This document shows positions 1 to 49,312 of a stretch of 49,748 bases of DNA, piece by piece. The first letter of the stretch is position 1, and each line of letters begins with the position of its first letter. Source of the DNA: Baaleninema simplex PCC 7105 (GTDB taxonomy: Bacteria; Cyanobacteriota; Cyanobacteriia; Cyanobacteriales; Geitlerinemataceae); NCBI RefSeq assembly GCF_000332355.1, contig NZ_KB235958.1:2855427-2905174 (forward strand), written 5' to 3'. The notes under the pieces were generated by a model, which did not search any database, had not been told where the DNA came from, and worked only from the letters and a program-made list of their open reading frames with translations. The translations under genes and the position numbers were made by a program.

Positions 1-135
1 TGTGGAATCGTTCTGGCGGGGACTTGAAGTTATCTGAGTTCAAGTCTAGTCAAGAGGTTGAGAAGCAGGAAATCCTTGGTGTGAACCAAGGAATCTCCCA
101 GCATACCCATTAGGGTTGCTGGGAGAGGATGTCAA
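1..135 (+). mobile_element. Right end of an IS200/IS605 (TnpB-type) element, solo relic
   Basis: The sequence ends in the terminus GGGAGAGGATGTCAA, which recurs at 3948-3962 and inverted at 22252. Three successive stem-loops can be drawn: GACTTGAA/TTCAAGTC (21-46), CCTTGGT/ACCAAGG (74-91) and CTCCCAGCA/TGCTGGGAG (95-125). In TnpB elements the 3' end of tnpB plus the right end is transcribed as the omega RNA, and this region has that kind of layout. No tnpB open frame is present, and the left part lies outside the window. The end lies directly against an IS66 fragment. The assignment to IS200/IS605 is by pattern; the RNA role is inference. Confidence 0.65.
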
Positions 136-136
136 A

Positions 137-288
137 GCCGCCAAGGAAGCTAAAATATCCCAAGTGCGAGCGCTGGATTCGGTCTTATTGCTGCAAGAGA
201 CCTTGCGAGCGATGAGGGCGGGACGTAACTGTCGTTCGGCGGGATTATTGGTGGCCTCGACTTGAGGTAAATCCAGAACATTTTGCCT
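137..288 (-). pseudogene. IS66-family transposase, C-terminal fragment
   Basis: Read on the minus strand, this stretch encodes VLDLPQVEATNNPAERQLRP, followed by ALIARKVSCSNKTES and then ARTWDILASLAA. That is the typical end of IS66 TnpC transposases: the catalytic Glu-containing NN.AER.LRP block followed by RK.S..NKT. A TGA codon lies in frame just upstream, and the reading frame stops downstream at the junction with the IS200/IS605-type end at 135. Only about 50 codons remain, so the gene is dead. The fragment appears to have been split by insertion of the neighbouring element. Confidence 0.7.
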
Positions 289-289
289 T

Positions 290-420
290 CAGGCAAGGGG
301 CTGTGGATGGATAAGCGGCGCGGGGCAGGAATACCCAATCGCGAGGCTTCGCCGTGAGCGTCAGCCGAACGGTTGGGAAGCCCGCACTGTACCTGTAGGG
401 TCAGCGTCGGGAGGATGTCA
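290..420 (+). mobile_element. Second, divergent IS200/IS605-like right end
   Basis: The stretch ends in GTCGGGAGGATGTCA. This resembles the GGGAGAGGATGTCAA terminus of the neighbouring relic and of the copies at 3.96 and 22.25 kb. Upstream sequence has the look of a decayed tnpB 3' end, but no long frame is left. The last three bases supply the stop codon of the adjacent minus-strand gene. The call rests on the shared terminus and general structure only. Confidence 0.4.
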
Positions 421-1023
421 ATATCCGAAGCTAATGTCGTCTACAGCTAGTTCTCCATCGAACGCGTAAAACGTGACGCGATGAATGTTGGGGGCTTTAA
501 CGATGAGTTGATAGTTAGGGGGGGTCGTCTTTTTGCTGTCGGCGAGGTTCGACGAGGGGAGTTCGGCGCGGGCGATCGTTTCTCCAAGATGGTTGTACGC
601 CGACATCGCGGTAATTCTGGAACTGGTGATGAATCCCGATACGAACTGAACGGGATGGCTGAATTTCAACTCGAGAAATCCATTTTGAGGCGCACCCATC
701 AGTAGGATTTCGCCTGAGTGGGTGGGATAGGCGGGATTCGACGGACAAACGGCGATCGCGTTGTCGAATTGGACGCCCCACCGTGCGAATTGATCTCGCA
801 CGACTTCAAAACGTTCTAAGCCTTCAAAGTCTAGGCGTACGCAGGCTGGAAGCTGGGAGCTGTAAGTTCGGTCTGTAGAACCTTGTCGTTCGACTCGAGC
901 GATCGTGCTGTTCGTGGCAGCAGTGCGATCGCCCTCTAGCCATCTCGACGCGGTGTCGAAACTATCCCAGGGATAAATGATTGACTCTAGCATAGTCTTG
1001 TCCGATGCTGTAAACCCACGCAA
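418..1023 (-). CDS. Hypothetical exported-type beta-sandwich protein (PEP-CTERM-like ectodomain)
   Basis: This 201-residue protein has no recognisable catalytic motif. Its second half (about residues 105-201) has the pattern of cyanobacterial PEP-CTERM/discoidin-like ectodomains. A stretch on the lines of FSHPVQFVSGF is followed by AYNHLGETIA, an 'NIHRVTFYAFDGELAVDD' type strand and the terminal DDISFGY. No clear signal peptide or C-terminal sorting anchor is seen, so the protein may be cytoplasmic or truncated. An alternative start is Met11 at 993. Its TGA stop (418-420) is formed by the terminal bases of an IS200/IS605-like end, so the original C-terminus, perhaps including an anchor, may have been cut off. 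Function unknown. Confidence 0.6.
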   Translation of the reverse strand: MRGFTASDKTMLESIIYPWDSFDTASRWLEGDRTAATNSTIARVERQGSTDRTYSSQLPACVRLDFEGLERFEVVRDQFARWGVQFDNAIAVCPSNPAYPTHSGEILLMGAPQNGFLELKFSHPVQFVSGFITSSRITAMSAYNHLGETIARAELPSSNLADSKKTTPPNYQLIVKAPNIHRVTFYAFDGELAVDDISFGY

Positions 1024-3410: not shown

Positions 3411-3540
3411 GGGGCGCGATCGCAGAATAGACAACCAGAGCGATCGTACGGCCAGTTTGAGGGACGGCGCGATCTCGAACTGGGGAAACTCCCGCGATCG
3501 CAGTAGTTGTTTCGGGCAAAAACTCTCTATCAAGATCCGT

Positions 3541-3962
3541 CGCAGTACTCCGCCTATACCGCGAAGCGGTTAGGGGGTGGTGAAGCGGCGGTGAGTTGAG
3601 GTGCGTCCCCTGAACAATGCGATAGCGAGAGAAGGGGATAGCGCCGAAACGAGCCATCAAATATAATTGATAAGGTGGTAACACGCTGAAAACATACGGA
3701 TAGCTCATCCAGTAGGCAGCCCAGAAGTAACGGTTAAGACACTGGCAACCTGTATAGAGCATAAAGCCCAAAACCAAAAATCAGATCCGTCCGGCTTGGG
3801 GGCACCAAGTGGACGTAAAACAAAAAGCCTGTGGAATCGTTCTGGCGGGGACTTGAAGTTATTTGAGTTCAAGTCTAGTCAAGAGGTTGAGAAGCAGGAA
3901 ATTCTTGGTGTGAACCAGGGAATCTCCCTGCATACCCGATAGGGTTGCTGGGAGAGGATGTC
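3541..3962 (+). mobile_element. Non-autonomous IS200/IS605-derived element, copy A
   Basis: A roughly 420-bp element related over almost its whole length to the inverted copy at 22252-22738. The presumed left end (3541-3600) carries a hairpin ACCGC-GAA-GCGGT. The right end (3830-3962) carries the same stem-loop series and GGGAGAGGATGTCAA terminus as the solo end at 1-135. Between them only short, broken frames remain and no Tyr-transposase (TnpA) motif, so movement would need a transposase supplied in trans. It lies 86 bp before the P-type ATPase start and therefore occupies that gene's likely promoter region. Confidence 0.65.
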
Positions 3963-4048
3963 AAGCTGGGAATATCGCGGATCGTCTTGCCCGAACCGAC
4001 ACCGGGCCCCCAACGATCCGTCACCGATGCCGCGATCGCCTTCGCATT

Positions 4049-6877
4049 ATGGCCTTTTCTCCGCCTTCTCCAAACCCGACGGGCTACGACCCCTCGCGAG
4101 CGTGGCACGCCCTCAGCCCCCACGACGCCCTCACTTTCCTCGACAGCGACGCCGAACGAGGATTGACGGACGCGCAAGTCCGCCAACGCCTGCAAGTTTT
4201 CGGTTGGAACGAAATCCGAGAAACAGCCGGTCGCAGCAACCTCGTCATTTTGTGGGAACAGTTTACCAACGTCATGTTGCTGATGCTGACGGGCGTCGCC
4301 ATCGTCTCAGCACTGTTAGATTTGCGTCAGGGAATTTTTCCCCGAGATGCCGTCGCAATTTTCACCATCGTCATTCTCAACGCAATTTTAGGCTTTTTCC
4401 AAGAAAGTCGAGCTGAAAAAGCCCTAGCCGCCCTCAAACGGCTGTCTGCGCCCCAAGTGCGCGTCGTCCGCAGCGGCATTCCCAGCGAAATTGCGGCCAA
4501 AGAACTGGTTCCCGGCGATATCGTTCTCCTCGAAACAGGGGGGTCTGTGGCGGCGGACGCGCGCTTGCTGGAAGCTCGAAATTTATCCATCCGAGAAGCT
4601 GCCCTAACCGGGGAATCGGAAGCCGTCAGCAAACAGGCCGATCTCCGCTGTCACGAAGAGGCGGCGTTGGGCGAGCGATCGAACTTGGTGTTTCAAGGGA
4701 CTGAAATCGCCAGCGGCCGCGGCCGGGCTGTGGTGACGAAAACCGGCATGAATACTGAAATCGGACAGATTGCGACGCTATTGCAATCTGTCGAAAGCGA
4801 AGCGACTCCCCTGCAACAGCGCATGGCGGAACTGGCCAACGTTCTGGTTCTCGGTTCCCTGCTGTTGGTGGCGTTCGTCGTCAGCGTCGGCGTGTTGCAA
4901 ACTGGATGGAGTCAGTTTCGGGCGTTGTTGGAAGTGTCGCTGAGTATGGCGGTGGCGGTGGTTCCCGAAGGACTTCCCGCCGTGGTCACGGTGACGTTAG
5001 CCATCGGAACCCAGCGCATGGTGCGTCACAACGCTCTGATTCGCAAACTGGCGGCGGTGGAAACCTTGGGATCGGTGACGACGATTTGCTCGGATAAAAC
5101 CGGAACGCTGACCCAAAATAAAATGGTGGTGCAGTGGGTGCAGACGGGGACGCAGAACCTGAGCGTGACGGGAGAGGGCTACCAGCCCAGCGGTCAGTGG
5201 CGCGAACGAACGCCGTTACACGATCGCGATCGCCCTTCGGACCCGATCGTCGATCGCACTCACCCCGACCTACAACGGTTGTTGTACGCCTGCATTCTCT
5301 GTAACGACGCACTGTTGAAACAAAGCGGCAATACTTGGGACGTTATTGGAGATGCCACCGAAGGCGCGTTGCTGTCTCTGGCGGGAAAGGCCGGGTTGTT
5401 CCGCGAAGCGATCGCCCCGAAAATGCCTCGCATTGCCGAAATTCCCTTTTCCTCCGAACGCAAGCGGATGTCCGTGACGGTCAAACGACCGGATATCGAA
5501 TCGAACGAAGACGCCCCCTATCTCCTCATGATGAAAGGCTCTCCCGAGGTGGTGTTAGAGCGGTGTACTCAGGTGCGACGGGGCGATCGCACCCATCCCC
5601 TCAGCAAGCGCGGCCGCCAAATTTTGCTCGATCGCAGCAATCGCATGGCGGCCCGAGGGTTTCGCGTTTTGGGCTTGGCCGAACGCCCCCTCGACACCCT
5701 CCCTGACAGCGACGCTGACGCCCTCGAACAACAGCTCGTTTGGCTGGGTTGGGTGGGAATGCTCGACGCCCCGCGCCCGGAAGCCCAAGACGCCGTAGCA
5801 CGCTGTCGAGAAGCGGGAATTCGTCCGGTGATGATTACCGGCGACCACCGCCTCACCGCCCAAGCGATCGCCTACGATTTGGGCATCGCGCGACCGGGCG
5901 ATCGCGTCCTCACCGGGCAAGAGTTAGATCGCTTGTCTCCAGACGCCCTCGAGGAACAGGTCGATCTCGTCAGCGTGTACGCCCGAGTTTCCCCCAAACA
6001 CAAACTCGACATCGTCCGCGCCCTGCAAAAGCGGGGTCGGATCGTCGCCATGACGGGAGACGGCGTGAACGATGCCCCCGCCCTCAAACAAGCCGACATC
6101 GGCATTGCTATGGGGTTAACCGGAACTGACGTGAGTAAGGAAGCTAGCAATACCATCTTGCTCGACGACAACTTCGCCACCATCGTCAGAGCCACCGAAG
6201 AAGGGCGCGTCGTCTACGACAACATTCGCCGTTTCATCCGCTACGTTTTAGGTAGCAACGTCGGGGAAGTGTTAACCATCGGTTCGGCGCCTCTCCTCGG
6301 CTTGGGGGGCGCTCCCCTCTCGCCGCTACAGATTCTCTGGATGAACCTCGTCACCGACGGACTTCCTGCCTTAGCCTTAGCCATGGAACCGGCCGAACCC
6401 AAGGTGATGCAGCGTCCCCCGTACAGTCCCCACGAAAGTATTTTTGCTCGGGGGCTGGGGGTGTATATTCTCCGCATCGGCGTTGTGTTTTCGGTATTGA
6501 CGATCGCCTTGATGACTTGGGGATACCGCTACGCTCACAGTTTCGGCGACCCCGATCGCTGGAAAACTATGGTGTTTACGACGTTGTGTTTGGCGCAAAT
6601 GGGTCACGCGTTAGCGGCGCGATCGACGACGCAACTGACGGTCGAACTGAACCCGCGATCGAATCTCTACGTTTGGGGCGCGGTTATCCTGACGACAGTG
6701 TTACAACTGATGTTGATTTACGTGACGCCGTTGCGGAACTTTTTCGGAACCTATCTGTTAAGTCCACTGGAACTTGCGGTATGTTTCGGATTTAGTCTGT
6801 TGGTGTTCGTGTGGCTCGAGGGAGAAAAACTCCTTTATCGGTGGCTTTCTCGGCGTAAAAAAACACGAGCGTTATAA
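4049..6877 (+). CDS. Ca2+-type (P2A) cation-transporting P-type ATPase
   Basis: A 942-residue membrane pump. Order: N-terminal cation-ATPase domain (about 18-90); TGES actuator motif (188-191); PEGLP in M4 with Glu307; the phosphorylation motif DKTGTLT at Asp349; nucleotide domain with KGSPE; hinge TGDGVND; and C-terminal helices. Ca2+-site ligands of the SERCA class are present: the M4 Val-Ala-Val-Val-Pro-Glu, the M5 SNVGE and the M6 NLVTDG. This supports a Ca2+-ATPase (PacL-like), although Mn2+ or mixed specificity cannot be excluded. It would export cations across the cytoplasmic membrane using ATP. The upstream region is occupied by an IS-derived element, so the native promoter may have changed. 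The start at 4049 precedes the usual N-terminal domain by about 18 residues. Confidence 0.9.
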
Positions 6878-10276: not shown

Positions 10277-10345
10277 CTATACGTCCTCTTCGTCTTCGAC
10301 TCCTTCAGCCGCCGGAGGCACCAACGCCACCGCAGCGATCGCGCG
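10277..10345 (-). pseudogene. gyrA 3'-terminal fragment
   Basis: The last 21 codons plus stop of gyrA ([21 protein letters not shown]) are repeated here, identical to the end of the complete gyrA at 15320. The fragment breaks at GCGATCGCG and continues into LRR-unit sequence. It is a by-product of the segmental duplication and is not functional as a gene. Confidence 0.88.
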
Positions 10346-10651
10346 CCCCTCACCTCCTCGTGAAACTCAACCCTCACAAGAGATCGTAGAGGAGTCGTGT
10401 AGTACGTGATGTTATTGGCTGGGTTGAAAAAACTCGAATATCGCGGTTCCGACTCTGCACTACTAGACTGAACGTCAGTCCGGATCTATAAGAACGTTGC
10501 AGCATAAAGTTTTTTGACTGAGTTGTGGCTTCATCCACGATAGGATTCAAGTTTAAACTTATATCAAACGGCTTTCCTAAACTTAGATTTCTTAGTTCCA
10601 GCAAACCTCGCGTCGCTCGATAGGGCAATCGGAATCGTCCAGAAAATTTCC

Positions 10652-11716
10652 TCAATAATTTAATATTCTGAGTCGATTCAAATTAGATAGAGTACTAATA
10701 TCCTCGATCTGATTGTCGAACAACGATAGCTCGGTCAACCCAACCAAGTTAGACAGTGGAGTGACATCTTGAATCTGGTTGTTGTTGAGATATAACTTAT
10801 ACAGATTCATCAAATTCGCCAAAGGGGACAGATCTCTGATACGATTTTCCCCTAAATCCAGTTCGGTTAAATTGATTAAATTGGTTAAGGGAGATATATC
10901 TTCAATCCGGTTATTAGATGCATAGAGTTTTTCTAAAGTTATTCGTCCTTCTAAAGCTGATAAGTCGTAGATTCGATTTTTGGAAATAGTCAAACTTCGC
11001 AAGCGAGGTAACTTGGGTAGAGAATTCAAGTTTTGAAGTTGATTGTATTCAATACTCAATTTTTGCAAATTGGTCAAGTTTGGGAATCCATTCAAATTCT
11101 GAATAGAATTACCATTGAGAAAAAGACGCTCTAGATTGGGAAGTTCGGGAAGAGTTAGTAGACTACGAGTGTCTATAGGATTTTCACTGAGAGTTAAAGA
11201 AGTTAAAGAAGTAAGAGTCACGAGTGGGCTCAAGTCTTCTATTTGATTACTTTCCAAGCTTAACCTTTTTAAAGTAGTCAAGCGACTGAGAGGACGAATG
11301 TCTTCAATCTGATTTTCAAATAAGATTAAGCCTTCAATTCCAAGCAAACTTCCAATCGGTCGCAAATCTTTAATGTTTTTATCGATTAAAGTTAACGACT
11401 TTTCGTCGAGAATCTCCGCCTCGATTAAATGACATTCTACATTCCCGTACCGATCGCGGATTGTTTCCACGGTATGACGAGCTTCTTCATCGAGTCGTTG
11501 GCGATTCTCACACCAGTCTGTAAAGGTTTCGTATTCGGGTTCTTCCGCTTCACGAGTAAGGAGGGGGTGGCTAAGATTTGAAGGGATGAAAGATTCCGAA
11601 ACGGCGATCGCTTGACTTAAAGCACTTGGGGAAGATAAGGCGAGATAGGATACGCTTGGGTTGTAACCGATGCAGAGAACCGCTAAGACTTGTCTGAAAA
11701 GCTTGAAGGGAATCAT
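10652..11716 (-). CDS. Internalin-like leucine-rich-repeat protein 1 (C-terminus lost)
   Basis: 354 residues. The N-terminus (MIPFKLFRQVLAVLCIGYNP...) has basic residues followed by a hydrophobic stretch, so export is likely. Residues about 60-112 form a helical N-cap with two Cys (WCENRQ; VECHL). From about 112 run 22-residue LRRs of the SDS22/internalin type (L..L..L.L..N.I.D..PL..L). These form curved binding surfaces; the ligand is unknown. Compared with the next two genes, it lacks one repeat in the middle. A GGA-to-TGA change stops the frame at 10652-10654; the sequence beyond (to 10592) still encodes the conserved GNFLDDSDC...CWN cap. The protein thus lacks the last 19-20 residues with the Cys pair and may be non-functional, or read through. 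Confidence 0.85.
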   Translation of the reverse strand: MIPFKLFRQVLAVLCIGYNPSVSYLALSSPSALSQAIAVSESFIPSNLSHPLLTREAEEPEYETFTDWCENRQRLDEEARHTVETIRDRYGNVECHLIEAEILDEKSLTLIDKNIKDLRPIGSLLGIEGLILFENQIEDIRPLSRLTTLKRLSLESNQIEDLSPLVTLTSLTSLTLSENPIDTRSLLTLPELPNLERLFLNGNSIQNLNGFPNLTNLQKLSIEYNQLQNLNSLPKLPRLRSLTISKNRIYDLSALEGRITLEKLYASNNRIEDISPLTNLINLTELDLGENRIRDLSPLANLMNLYKLYLNNNQIQDVTPLSNLVGLTELSLFDNQIEDISTLSNLNRLRILNY

Positions 11717-12016
11717 TTTCTAGGTTGAGGACAAAGTTTATTGGAATCTTAGCATGGGGGCGATCGCGCGACTCTCACCTCCTCGTGAAACTCAACCCCC
11801 ACAAGAGATCGTAGAGGAGTCGTGTAGTACGTGATGTTATTGGCTGGGTTGGAAAAACTCGAATATCGCGGTTCCGGCTCTGCACTACTAGACTGAACGT
11901 CAGTCCGGATTCAGAAGAGCTTTGTAGCATAAAGTTTTTTGACTGAGCTGTGGCCTCATCCACGATAGGATTCAAGTTTCAACTTATATCAAACGGCTTT
12001 CCTAAACTCAGGTTTC

Positions 12017-13207
12017 TTAGTTCCAGCAAGCCTCGCGTCGCTCGATAGGGCAATCGGAATCGTCTAGGAAATTTCCTCCGTAACTTAACATTCTGAGTCG
12101 ATTCAAATTAGATAGGGAACTAATATCCTCGATCTGGTTGTCGAACAACCATAGCTCACCCAACCCAACTAAGTTAGACAGTGGAGTCACATCTTGAATC
12201 TGATTGTTGTTGAGATATAACCAAGACAGATTTATCAAATTAGCTAACGGGGATAGATCTCTGATGCGATTTTCTCCTAAATCCAGTTCGGTTAAATTGA
12301 TTAAATTGGTTAAGGGAGATATATCTTCAATCCGGTTATTAGATGCATAGAGTTTTTCTAAAGTTGTTCGTTCCCCTAAAGCGGATAAGTCATCAATTTG
12401 ATTGTCACGAATGATTAAAGCTCTCAATAGAGGTAACTCAGGCAGGAAATTCAAATTTTTAAATTGGTTGTTGTAGAGATACAGAGCTTCCAAGCTAGGC
12501 AAGTTTGGAAAAGATTCTAAGTCTTGTAGTTGAGATTCTCCGAGACTCAACGATCGCAATTGGGTTAGCCTTGATAATCCATCCAAGCTCTGAATAGAAT
12601 TGCCAGAGAGAATAAGTCGCTCCAGATTAGGTAAGCCAGGAAGAGTTAGTAAAATGAGTGCATCAATATTGTTTTCTCTTAAATTTAAATAAGTTAAAGA
12701 ATTGAGAGCGGCGAGCGAAGCTAAATCTTCAACTTGATTCTTTCCTAGATCTAGTGAGTTTAAAGTAGTCAAGCGACTGAGAGGACGAATATCTTCAATT
12801 TTATTGTCTAATAAGGTTAATTCTTCAAGTCCGAACAAACTTCCAATCGGACGCAAGTCTTTGAGGTTTCTGTTTATCAAAGTCAACGACTTCTCTTCGA
12901 GAATCTCCGCCTCGATTAAATGACATTCTACATTCCCGTACCGATCGCGGATTGTTTCCACGGTATGACGAGCCTCTTCATCGAGTCGCTGGCGATTCTC
13001 ACACCAGTCTGTAAAGGTTTCGTATTCGGGTTCTTCCGCTTCGCGAGTGAGGAGGGGGTGGGTCAGACTTGAAGGGATGAAAGATTCCGAAACGGCGATC
13101 GCTTGACTTAAAGCACTTGGGGAAGATAAGGCGAGATAGGATACGCTTGGGTTGTAACCGATGAAGAGAACCGCTAAAACTTGTCTGAAAAGCTTGAAGG
13201 GAATCAT
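12017..13207 (-). CDS. Internalin-like leucine-rich-repeat protein 2
   Basis: 396 residues, the longest of the three paralogues. It has the same signal-like N-terminus and two-Cys N-cap as its neighbours, then 22-residue LRRs, then a C-terminal cap GNFLDDSDCPIERREACWN with two Cys that could form a disulfide. The first ~110 and last ~120 residues are almost identical to the paralogues; the central repeats differ strongly (for example NQVEDLASLAALNSL here against NQIEDLTPLATLTSL in protein 3). It carries one more 22-residue repeat than either neighbour, which accounts for the 66-bp longer unit. Probably secreted or surface-exposed; ligand unknown. It is followed by about 280 bp of conserved non-coding sequence. 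Confidence 0.88.
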   Translation of the reverse strand: MIPFKLFRQVLAVLFIGYNPSVSYLALSSPSALSQAIAVSESFIPSSLTHPLLTREAEEPEYETFTDWCENRQRLDEEARHTVETIRDRYGNVECHLIEAEILEEKSLTLINRNLKDLRPIGSLFGLEELTLLDNKIEDIRPLSRLTTLNSLDLGKNQVEDLASLAALNSLTYLNLRENNIDALILLTLPGLPNLERLILSGNSIQSLDGLSRLTQLRSLSLGESQLQDLESFPNLPSLEALYLYNNQFKNLNFLPELPLLRALIIRDNQIDDLSALGERTTLEKLYASNNRIEDISPLTNLINLTELDLGENRIRDLSPLANLINLSWLYLNNNQIQDVTPLSNLVGLGELWLFDNQIEDISSLSNLNRLRMLSYGGNFLDDSDCPIERREACWN

Positions 13208-13507
13208 TTTCTAGGTTGAGGACAAGGTTTATTGGAATCTTAGCATGGGGGCGATCGCGCGACCCTCACCTCCTCGTGAAACTCAACCCCCACAAGAGAT
13301 CGTAGAGGAGTCGTGTAGTACGTGATGTTATTGGCTGGGTTGGAAAAACTCGAATATCGCGGTTCCGGCTCTGCACTACTAGACTGAACGTCAGTCCGGA
13401 TTCAGAAGAGCTTTGTAGCATAAAGTTTTTTGACTGAGCTGTGGCCTCATCCACGATAGGATTCAAGTTTCAACTTATATCAAACGGCTTTCCTAAACTC
13501 AGGTTTC

Positions 13508-14632
13508 TTAGTTCCAGCAAGCCTCGCGTCGCTCGATAGGGCAATCGGAATCGTCCAGGAAATTTCCTCCGTAACTTAACATTCTGAGTCGAGTCAAATT
13601 AGATAGGGAACTAATATCCTCGATCTGATTGTCGAACAACCATAGCTCGATCAACCCAACCAAGTTAGACAGTGGAGTCACATCTTGAATCTGGTTGTTG
13701 TTGATATATAACTTATACAGATTTATCAAATTAGCCAACGGGGACAAATCTCTGATGCGATTTTCCCCTAAGTCCAGCTCGGTTAAATTGATTAAATTGG
13801 CTAAGGGAGATATATCTTCGATCTGGTTATTAGATGCATAGACTAATTCTAAAGTTGTGAGTTCCTTTAAAGCGGATAAGTCATTAATTTGATTGTTGGC
13901 AATACGCAAAATTCGCAAGCGAGGTAACTCAGATAGGAAATCCAAGTTTTGAAATCGATTGTTATTCAGCCACAAAGCCTCTAAGCTAGGCAAATCGGGA
14001 AAAGAATCTAAGTTCTGAAGTTGAGAATCTTCAAGACCCAACCATCGCAATTGAGTTTGACCGGACAAGCCTTCTAAGTCATGAATAGGATTACCATTGA
14101 GAAACAGAATCTCTAGATTGGGCAGTTCGGGAAGAGTTAGTAGATTGAGAGCATCTATAGGATTTTCAATTAAACTTAAAGAAGTTAAAGAAGTGAGAGT
14201 CGCGAGTGGAGTCAAATCTTCGATCTGATTGCTTGATAAATCCAATCTTTCAAGTCCGAGTAAACTTCCAATCGGACGCAAGTCTTTGAGGTTTCTGTTT
14301 ATCAAAGTCAACGACTTCTCTTCGAGGATTTCCGCCTCGATTAAATGGCATTCAGCATCCTCGTACCAATCGCGGATTGTCTCCACAGTATGGCGAGCCT
14401 CTTCATCGAGTCGTTGGCGATTCTCACACCAGTCTGTAAAGGTTTCGTATTCGGGTTCTTCCGCTTCGCGAGTGAGGAGGGGGTGGGTCAGACTTGAAGG
14501 GATGAAAGATTCCGAAACGGCGATCGCTTGACTTAAAGCACTTGGGGAAGATAAGGCGAGATAGGATACGCTTGGGTTGTAACCGATGAAGAGAACCGCT
14601 AAAACTTGTCTGAAAAGCTTGAAGGGAATCAT
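13508..14632 (-). CDS. Internalin-like leucine-rich-repeat protein 3
   Basis: 374 residues: signal-like N-terminus, Cys-containing N-cap, LRRs from about residue 112, and the full C-cap with two Cys. Relative to protein 2 it lacks the repeat carrying IRPLSRLTTL immediately after SLLGLE, near the start of the LRR block. Protein 1 lacks a different repeat further on. It is the first gene of the array in the direction of transcription. Upstream of its start lie the array end at 14686, an inverted-repeat element and cupin copy 2, whose terminator (14882-14912) should isolate it from gyrA transcription. It probably has its own promoter. Ligand and location inferred, not shown. Confidence 0.88.
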   Translation of the reverse strand: MIPFKLFRQVLAVLFIGYNPSVSYLALSSPSALSQAIAVSESFIPSSLTHPLLTREAEEPEYETFTDWCENRQRLDEEARHTVETIRDWYEDAECHLIEAEILEEKSLTLINRNLKDLRPIGSLLGLERLDLSSNQIEDLTPLATLTSLTSLSLIENPIDALNLLTLPELPNLEILFLNGNPIHDLEGLSGQTQLRWLGLEDSQLQNLDSFPDLPSLEALWLNNNRFQNLDFLSELPRLRILRIANNQINDLSALKELTTLELVYASNNQIEDISPLANLINLTELDLGENRIRDLSPLANLINLYKLYINNNQIQDVTPLSNLVGLIELWLFDNQIEDISSLSNLTRLRMLSYGGNFLDDSDCPIERREACWN

Positions 14633-22231: not shown

Positions 22232-22251
22232 CCCAACCGATCGATTCTTGA

Positions 22252-22738
22252 CATCCTCTCCCAGCAACCCTATCGGGTATGCAGGGAGATTCCCGGGTTC
22301 ACACCAAGGATTTCCTGCTTCTCAACCTCTTGACTAGACTTGAACTCAGATAACTTCAAGTCCCCGCCAGAACGATTCCACAGGCTTTTTGTTTTACGTC
22401 CACTTGGTGCCCCCAAGCCGGACGGATCTGATTTTTGGTTTTGGGCTTTATGCTCTATACAGGAGGACACGGGTGGCGAACCGAGTTCGCCACCGTGAGA
22501 TGTCCGTGTTGCCAGTGTCTTAACCGTTACTTCTGGGCTGCCTACTGGATGAGCTATCCGTATGTTTTCAGCGTGTTACCACCTTATCAATTATATTTGA
22601 TGGCTCGTTTCGGCGCTATCCCCTTCTCTCGCTATCGCATTGTTCAGGGGACGCACCTCAACTCACCGCCGCTTCACCACCAACCAAGCCTATTGGCTAT
22701 GGTTGGAGCGCTGCGACGAATCTTGGTAGGGGGTTGCA
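22252..22738 (-). mobile_element. Non-autonomous IS200/IS605-derived element, copy B
   Basis: Inverted relative of copy A (3541-3962), with the right end at 22252 (TTGACATCCTCTCCC) and the left end near 22738. The left-end hairpin AACCAAGCC/GGCTATGGTT differs in sequence from that of copy A, but its flanks (ACCGCCGCTTCACCA and CTGCGACGAATCTTGGTAG) are conserved. It contains a 45-bp palindromic segment at about 22461-22505 that is cleanly absent from copy A and present again at 48887-48935. The frames inside are short and shared with copy A; I regard them as non-coding. It fills nearly all of the gap before bciB, together with a short AT-richer stretch. Confidence 0.65.
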
Positions 22739-42369: not shown

Positions 42370-43090
42370 GAGATCTTGACGCTCTCCCCCCAACCCTAGC
42401 GGGTATGGTCGGAGATTCCTGTTTCACTGGCTCATGCCTAGATAAACGAGCAAGCCCGAATACCCCCGGTCAGAACGCCTTCACAGGCTGTTTGTTTAAC
42501 GTCCACGATGCGCCCCACCGCAGACATAAGCGAGAATCAAATTCTCTTGACAACACCAACTGGCGATTTTGTGGTTTACCTCCACCACGGGTTTTTCGGG
42601 TGTTGCGAACCATACCCTTAGGATCTTAAAGACCGTTTCCGGTAAGGCAATTTTACCAGTTTGTTCGTTTCGGCGCTATCCCCTTCTCTCGCTATCGCAT
42701 TGTTCAGGGGATGCACCGAAACTCACCGCCGCTTCACCACCAACCAAGCCTATTGGCTATGGTTGGAGCGCTGCGACGAATCTTGGTAGCTTCTCAGTCC
42801 TTCTACCAGAGAGGGAGGCGGCACTCTCGCCTACTGCCAGGAACTTCTGCCTTGGCAGCACCCCAGGTCATTTCTGCTTGTGGGCTTGGGTTGAAATTTC
42901 TGATGCCAACTTTTTGCCCGTTCCCTACATTTATGAATCGGGTGATGCCGGGACTGACCGGTTCAGTTGTACCTTGCCAAGCGGGTCTTGTATCTACCCA
43001 GGACTCCAGAGTTCTTGTCGGGTGGGCAATAGTGCCGTACTTGGCTAACTTTGATTATAGTACATTGTTGTCCGCCGCTAATTATCGATT
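42370..43090 (-). mobile_element. Decayed IS200/IS605-type relic, copy D
   Basis: The right-end-like sequence at 42375-42420 (TTGACGCTCTCCCCCCAACC) is a diverged version of that of copies A and B. A 130-bp stretch (42660-42790) is nearly identical to the left-end half of copy B, including the AACCAAGCC/GGCTATGGTT hairpin. From 42790 to 43090 lies further degenerate sequence with short frames on both strands and no recognisable catalytic motif. It fills the whole space between the kinase and purF genes. Confidence 0.55.
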
Positions 43091-48500: not shown

Positions 48501-48636
48501 GGTGCCTCCTTCAAATATTTAGCTTCAGCAAAAATGAGAGATTGCTGCTTTCTATTTTAAGAAATTTTACCAAAAATTTGGGTCTAAAGCCTCGCCCCCT
48601 TCGACTTGGCTCAGGGCAAGCCTTCGACTTAGCTCA

Positions 48637-48728
48637 CTTCGACAAGCTCACTTCGACAAGCTCACTTCGACAAGCTCACTTCGACAAGCTCAGTGCAAGC
48701 AGTGCAAGCAGTGCAAGCAGTGCGAGCA
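48637..48728. repeat. Tandem 14-mer and 9-mer repeats
   Basis: Four perfect copies of CTTCGACAAGCTCA (48637-48692), preceded by two degenerate ones. They run straight into four copies of GTGCAAGCA/GTGCGAGCA (48693-48728). The spacing is far too short for CRISPR. The sequence can be read in several frames and looks like simple-repeat expansion. Confidence 0.9.
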
Positions 48729-48779
48729 GGGCAAGCCTTGCAGGGCGACTTTGCTATGATGTCAGAGAACTGGAACGGT

Positions 48780-49137
48780 ATTTAACCAGTCTAAAAACCG
48801 AGCCTCTAATCGAGGCATCCGAACCTTGAAAACTAGAGTTAGCGGGTTCTGTTCGGGAAAGCTCCAACAGGTAAAAGCTCTAAGCAACACGGACATCTCA
48901 CGGTGGCGAACTCGGTTCGCCACCCGTGTTCTCAAGTACAGAAAGTCAATTTTTCAGTAGATTATCAGGTACGGTAGGGCATACCGAAACCTCCTCTGTA
49001 ATGGGGAAAACGTCTGGGGAGATAAACCCCTCTGGTACTTATTGGCAACAATGGGTAGTAAGGGTTGTCGCCGAACCAGAAATCTAGAACCATGAGGTCT
49101 GGAGAATCCCCACGCCTTCAGGCTGGGGAGTATGTCA
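48780..49137 (+). mobile_element. IS200/IS605-type relic, copy E, with tnpB C-terminal remnant
   Basis: The frame 48971-49087 encodes TVGHTETSSVMGKTSGEIN, then PSGTYWQQWVVRVVAEPEI and a stop: the kind of tail found at the end of TnpB proteins. It is followed by the right-end hairpin CCCC-ACGCC-TTCA-GGCTGGGG (49108-49128) and GTATGTCAA. The palindromic segment at 48887-48935 (GGTGGCGAAC-TCG-GTTCGCCACC inside) is shared with copy B. The catalytic part of TnpB is absent. Confidence 0.6.
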
Positions 49138-49312
49138 AAGAAAGCGCTAATGTGGCGATAAACATCTGCCCGTTTCCCCAACCGCCTAAACTGGGTTGGT
49201 GCATCGATCGCACCTCCTACCGGGACTTAAACAAATTTCGATCGTGTTGCACTCTAATGATGCTGGTCAGTCACAATCCTGTCGTGGCAAGGATTCAAAA
49301 ACCGAAGCAGCA

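Follow-up and report, generated by a model that had tools for sequence, protein, structure and literature searches.

Two places in the window, the whole 49,748-nt stretch of DNA analysed here (C4:2855427-2905174, from a genome of 6.15 Mb in 8 contigs), hold complete gene-less transposable elements with both ends present, copies 2 and 3 of the A family. Two further places, 42376-42785 (B) and 48571-49138 (C), are members of two further gene-less families. The class of element is already known: PATEs, gene-less derivatives of IS200/IS605 elements. As far as their sequence goes, the places in the window are PATEs related to the IS1341-type (tnpB-only) members of the IS200/IS605 group. Seen directly are both ends, insertion behind CTAY (with TTAC the probable target in C), the absence of tnpB, recent spread, a covarying omegaRNA-type scaffold and resident tnpB genes with the same right end. 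The best explanation of the whole, which we consider about evenly poised between right and wrong, is that these PATEs carry a promoter-driven RNA that would guide a resident TnpB, with TnpA acting in trans. The elements and their candidate targets are as follows.

1-135, plus strand: right end of A-family copy 1; its left end is beyond the window, at C4:2855255-2855326, on the far side of a 100-N gap
300-421, plus strand: weak diverged right end of D type (covariance model, 21.3 bits)
3527-3530, plus strand: CTAT, the target left of copy 2 and a candidate TAM
3531-3964, plus strand: A-family PATE copy 2, complete, 438-type
22248-22725, minus strand: A-family PATE copy 3, complete; of the 482-type, including 44 nt of palindromic sequence absent from copy 2
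22726-22729: CTAC, the target of copy 3
42376-42785, minus strand: B-family PATE of 410 nt, with target CTAC at 42786-42789
48571-49138, plus strand: C-family PATE, with right end at 49013-49138 and probable target TTAC at 48567-48570

A first-pass annotation had pointed to a structured end recurring at three places, and this was borne out: the 135 nt at 1-135 are repeated at 3830-3964 and, inverted, at 22248-22382, each 96% identical to copy 1. Searching the genome with window 3500-3975 gave at least 46 matches, at least 18 of them near full length (40 of 104 candidates scored). These 18 copies, among which L001 is copy 2 and L015 is copy 3, represent 17 sites, with L017 and L018 having common flanks. 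Five are of the 438-type and the rest are of the 482-type with its extra 44-nt palindromic stretch. The A element spans CAAGATYC to GATGTCAA, behind CTAY. Pairwise identity of the 18 copies has a median of 98.8% and a minimum of 94.5%; the family has spread recently.

The same annotation had found no tnpB gene at these places, and rightly so: none of the at least 117 genomic matches to the TNB domain of TnpB (PF07282) falls in the window (150 of 161 candidates scored), and all three forward frames of copy 2 are interrupted by stops. The gene-less elements, 409-568 nt in length, contain no transposase gene and are too short to encode one. Near-terminal palindromes are found at both ends, as a right-end hairpin and as left-end hairpins; the left ends of the 438- and 482-types form long hairpins, with folding energies of -34.1 and -34.3 kcal/mol, respectively, and arms that differ in step. 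A palindromic stretch around GTGGCGAACTCGGTTCGCCAC (window 22454-22512 and 48884-48942) is common to the 482-type A elements and the C element, and was also found at further genomic places. Elsewhere in the window, 10335-14632 holds three tandem gene-like units that by eye have a leucine-rich-repeat look; their repeat blocks recur at intervals of 1425-1491 and are 72-95% alike.

At least 16 B-type matches were found in the genome (150 of 2002 candidates scored) and ten of them were read: eight are 410 nt long, the others 409 and 460. For the C family, the boundary of which was taken from the start points of alignments with other copies, nine places, the window included, cover most of a 366-nt query, one being merely 82% identical. 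The C left end folds more weakly than the A left ends (-15.7 kcal/mol) and by eye resembles a tnpA element at C2:58590. The weak end at 300-421 has relatives behind tnpB genes; the best of them (88% over 87 nt) lies at C6:218846-218933, some 190 nt behind the tnpB gene at C6:219124.

CTAY precedes the left end in all ten B elements read (CTAC in nine, CTAT in one); these elements were located by an anchor without CTAY, so the count is free of circularity. CTAY also stands before the left end in the alignment of A copies, likewise free of circularity, and the right flank starts with CTAY in one of 18 A copies (L013), so there is no duplication. Ten tnpB left ends are no proof of CTAY, because the script search for left ends used patterns already containing CTA or similar letters. 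Copy 1 adjoins a 121-nt inverted-end repeat on the side where this terminates in CTAT. At all 11 other repeat loci read, the sequence continues through CTAT and then A; at copy 1, CTAT is followed by the element and then by A in the right flank, an agreement of one base in one occupied/unoccupied comparison. The elements insert behind CTAY without target duplication, as is the case in IS200/IS605, and TTAC would be the target of the C family. The 121-nt repeat itself (inverted ends TATAGCA...TGCTATA) has at least about 20 genomic copies, with 40 of 346 candidates scored, among them L076:339-459 and the loci L163-L173.

Inside the A and B elements, the following parts were distinguished.

3662-3667, plus strand: TATAAT box of copy 2, a candidate -10 by sequence only, 6 nt before the leader
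3674-3827, plus strand: leader domain, conserved in gene-less elements of other genera
3828-3964, plus strand: omegaRNA-like scaffold of copy 2, comprising stem 1, hairpin 2 and hairpin 3 and ending GATGTCAA
22590-22595, minus strand: TATAAT box of copy 3, placed by the position of the copy 2 box
42650-42655, minus strand: TAAAAT box of the B element, 6 nt before the first hairpin, the start being set by eye

Folding and alignment of the right end gave a branched stem 1, a hairpin 2 and a terminal hairpin 3. A covariance model of this fold scored 137.5 bits at 3828-3964 and 136.7 bits at 22248-22384 (minus strand), copies 2 and 3 both being among its 18 training sequences. Applied to sequence outside the training set, the model gave 127.1 bits at 1-135, 43.2 bits (E 1e-9) at 42376-42487 (minus strand; the B scaffold, without hairpin 2), 27.3 bits (E 1.5e-5) at 49013-49138 and 21.3 bits (E 5e-4) at 300-421. 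By this measure the three diverged relatives that the first-pass annotation had listed are real, 300-421 weakly so. Rfam yielded no match at gathering score in the window, and in 3500-4000 just two chance-level matches to lncRNA families. A pseudoknot is reported for TnpB guide RNAs; a simple search, in an alignment fitted to a knot-free model, found no run of four or more compatible unpaired columns.

The fold covaries, as the reading of these ends as RNA had implied. When 18 right ends of A and tnpB elements were aligned with MAFFT (17 distinct rows, mainly in three sequence groups, from which the structure itself was taken), 99.2% of the cells of 38 named pairs proved to be paired; with slid partners the share is 36.5-57.9%. 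Double-change cells in this alignment number 32, versus 13.0 in shuffles (0/500). The number of pairs with a double change is not above the shuffles (6 vs 4.9; 68/500), nor do pair types beat them (366/500), so two of the five measures fail; a 35-pair version of the test gave the same picture. Among 28 distinct right ends from other genomes, in an alignment fitted to the model, double changes occur in 31 of 35 pairs and 95.0% are paired, versus 41.2-48.9% when slid. The stems covary both between gene-less and tnpB elements and across related genomes.

The model matches 42 of the 59 genomes searched, own genome included. Of 29 loci from other genomes (one match per genome for 29 genomes; TnpB is partial in L122, L130, L135 and L141), 24 have TnpB-coding sequence that overlaps the match or is found no more than about 80 nt upstream of it, on the same strand, which supports the omega-RNA-like reading of the first-pass annotation. 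We take the fold to be, most likely, a scaffold of the omegaRNA type. Some individual loci depart from the common pattern. At L086:1792-1921 the terminal right-end hairpin is inverted relative to other copies, and at L014:1848-1984 the 3' half of the terminal hairpin is altered to a perfect palindrome, the stems being intact in both. One genome has tandem model matches (L208:825-959 and 1560-1712), the first beside a tnpB gene and the second with none detected.

A leader of about 100-150 nt precedes the scaffold in the A element, and the portion adjoining the scaffold retains a remnant resembling the C-terminal part of tnpB. Gene-less elements in two genomes of another genus, within the same family as the host, also have the leader: G006 (90% over element positions 140-438) and G008 (84% over 112-438). 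In G289, from a different family, it is kept in part (68% over 165-424). Six-frame comparison of leader 3656-3800 and its G006 counterpart with 269 ORFs, drawn from the surroundings of TnpB genes and of related ends, gave no match at E <=0.05; the best score (E 0.055) came from a minus frame of the G006 copy. TANNAT is found 6 nt before the leader in six of seven lineages (A, B, G006, G008, G201 and G212/G261), with the leader start set by eye for B and G212/G261, whose leader differs or has diverged; G289 is without the box. The lineages are not all independent, because A and B have common DNA before the box. A sigma-70 promoter and terminator scan of 3427-4064 found none. A promoter-like signal and conserved leader before a guide RNA would be unusual.

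These features can also be read as those of a passive PATE. Here the right end would be kept since TnpA needs the terminal hairpin, and the scaffold would be an undecayed leftover of tnpB, with no RNA used. We give this reading somewhat less than an even chance. The 98.8% median identity of the copies leaves little time for decay, and nine of 18 A copies, window copy 3 included, have a broken pair (U.C) in hairpin 2. Gene-less right ends as a set (alignment A5) have 93.2% of cells paired versus 37.8-49.8% when slid, over 11 rows that include two A copies, one B copy and a spurious reverse hit, L185:1791-1823, kept in the counts. Some gene-less right ends elsewhere are decayed, as passivity would have it, with 7 broken pairs in L146 and 6 in L194; in L207/L209, 21 of 35 pairs are missing through gaps. 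The elements of G006 and G008, however, two genomes of another genus, are 84-90% identical and keep 34 of 35 pairs. Moreover, as far as is known TnpA needs only the end hairpins, yet conservation extends to the leader and to the -10-like box. Known PATEs do retain C-terminal remnants of tnpB and, in Halanaerobium, a whole right end, according to the excerpts of PMC7290912 and PMC3119063 considered here, as a passive origin would allow.

The most far-reaching reading makes the A and B elements mobile guide-RNA genes, with their own promoter-like box and leader and no protein genes, spreading between genera, depending on TnpA for movement and on others' TnpB for retention, and gaining a guide with each insertion. 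We put this forward as a tentative possibility; passive hitch-hiking on TnpA is nearly as likely as the best explanation given above.

It is very unlikely that the stems are DNA hairpins for TnpA and not RNA. The terminal hairpin is indeed subterminal, as TnpA hairpins are, and the inversion at L086 and the perfect palindrome at L014 are explicable by DNA events; but stem 1 and hairpin 2 lie further inside and covary, with G-U pairs, and the whole fold accompanies the tnpB 3' end in 24 of 29 loci of other genomes. More improbable again is a regulatory RNA adopted by the host, whether in TldR-like use or as a riboswitch-like leader. Such a role would suit G201: the leader core lies there 73 nt upstream of a frame resembling ComFB (21.6 bits for ComFB, with the cut-off at 25), and no convincing scaffold match was found near the core (best 15.4 bits, E 0.003, far off). 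This is, however, a single case, and the copies in the present genome occupy many unrelated sites. The core pattern occurs in merely 5 of 388 genomes, and the riboswitch reading of the leader was rejected on this ground.

The first-pass view was of solo right ends. An origin of such ends by the decay of tnpB elements can be dismissed almost entirely: it fits copy 1, at the window edge without a left end, but copies 1, 2 and 3, B and C all have left ends, which refutes it for these. Copy 1 resembles a solo end because a 100-N assembly run directly precedes window position 1; beyond that gap lie 72 nt of A-type left end, 98.6% identical. Several further partial A copies likewise end at 100-N runs.

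For PATEs whose RNA would guide a resident TnpB, partners have to be sought elsewhere in the genome. The Y1 transposase (PF01797) has five genomic matches, four above cut-off, and none of the five is a tnpA with A- or B-type ends. One tnpB class bears the A-type right end, mostly 85-89% identical over the last 74-81 nt (lowest 82%), with a left end 83-85% identical over the aligned parts. The first-pass annotation had envisaged a TnpB elsewhere in the genome, and tnpB genes with the same right end do exist there, some near full length: frames of at least 380 codons precede the right end in 12 of the 31 examined, and the RuvC motifs GIDVG, FVEDL and PRDV are found in 11, 12 and 12 of these 12. 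Two outcomes that the annotation had named as refuting it, a genome lacking any full-length relative and stems failing to covary, thereby turned out in its favour. By the RNA model, right ends of at least 33 tnpB-length, 19 A-length and 16 B-length matches are present, with 150 of 2002 candidates scored genome-wide and the type counts being a reading of match lengths.

Three example proteins score above cut-off for OrfB_IS605, the TNB domain and the HTH domain, and one resident TnpB matches solved TnpB structures (8h1j, E 3.6e-25). Among the matches listed, the nearest named-genome relatives of a resident TnpB come from cyanobacteria: Phormidium sp. SL48-SHIP (83%) and Phormidium willei (82%). 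When 388 genomes of the order were searched for a tnpB parent of the A element, 51 gave some match; besides the own genome, matches of at least 297 nt to the A element occur only in G006 and G008, and the loci examined there showed no TnpB, apart from a short scaffold match in G006. The A remnant resembles the C-terminal motif of one TnpB (G107, L198). Recognition of the A scaffold by a resident TnpB is a guess, because the scaffold resembles the C-terminal end of a different TnpB. As a separate observation on the A-type tnpB loci (e.g. L090:560-1969), 28 of 31 frames have no stop before the element right end and stay open across the scaffold, on into the guide and the host DNA; among loci of related genomes, L122-L126 and L128 have a stop 24-25 nt before the end, and L127 and L129 continue.

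The guides expected behind the termini of copies 1 and 2 are given below.

136-155, plus strand: expected guide of copy 1, the 20 nt behind its terminus, inside an IS66 transposase remnant (minus strand)
3965-3984, plus strand: expected guide of copy 2

That the guide of copy 1 would be IS66 transposase sequence, as the first reading had it, holds: the DNA behind copy 1 scores 24.2 bits with PF03050 (cut-off 23.1). There is no sign of a function against IS66, and this idea was rejected, as window 136-299 matches itself alone, with no second genomic match among all 6 candidates scored. For the same reason, the sole expected target of copy 1 is its own empty site. With CTAY and the first 16 nt of the copy 2 guide, no genomic site has fewer than 3 mismatches. 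The own locus of copy 2 has 3, all in the TAM letters (TCAA), and one unrelated site also has 3. Since the guide at the element's own locus follows TCAA and not CTAY, that locus would escape cutting.

The mechanism we propose would run as follows. TnpA in trans would excise and insert the gene-less elements. From a putative internal promoter, an RNA of about 290 nt would be made, comprising leader and scaffold and running into the flank. A resident TnpB would bind the element RNA and cut the empty donor site (CTAY and the right flank), and repair from a sister copy would restore the element, with each insertion supplying its own guide. The gene-less elements may in this way use the TnpB of neighbouring elements. 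We infer that a resident TnpB would accept the scaffold, that the RNA would be produced and that a TnpA would move A and B.

If such RNAs are made and used, gene-less elements would have a common retention nuclease in trans. This would help to explain how PATEs are able to outnumber their gene-bearing relatives, and how tnpB-only elements persist with few tnpA genes (at least 117 TNB versus 5 Y1 matches). The genome would offer a direct test system, with several families, a predicted target and predicted guides in one place.

An omegaRNA fold at the right end is the expected cargo of a tnpB-derived PATE. We found no description of a gene-less element in which the scaffold is preceded by a leader and a promoter-like box of the element's own, conserved between genera. 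In a literature search of titles and abstract openings, neither PATEs as carriers of guide RNAs nor stand-alone TnpB guide RNAs were found among the matches listed; we do not claim their absence in print. Stand-alone IscB omegaRNA loci were reportedly noted by Altae-Tran in 2021 in Ktedonobacter racemifer, with the nuclease gene not nearby and action in trans proposed; those loci are of IscB type, whereas the present elements are of TnpB type.

In the excerpted account of ISDra2 TnpB (PMC8612924), the reRNA/omegaRNA takes as its guide the DNA that follows the right end. TAM and insertion target coincide, and cutting of the donor joint is proposed to restore the element. The RNA there comes from a tnpB-bearing element; the present elements are without tnpB. 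The PATE-like element of Halanaerobium hydrogeniformans, in the part of PMC7290912 considered, consists of a partial left end, the final 58 nt of tnpB and a complete right end with three potential hairpins. Unlike the present families it is a single copy, and that part of the text describes no leader. Closest in kind are the PATEs of Haloquadratum walsbyi, which the portion of PMC3119063 considered describes as gene-less and IS605-related, with near-terminal palindromes, no target duplication and high copy number, one of them, HqIRS71, retaining part of the C-terminal coding region of IS605-type transposons. The present elements resemble them in being gene-less, in their palindromes, in the lack of duplication and in their high copy number. 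That study (2011) predates knowledge of the guide-RNA role of such right ends, and the portion considered makes no mention of a promoter, a leader or a covarying RNA scaffold.
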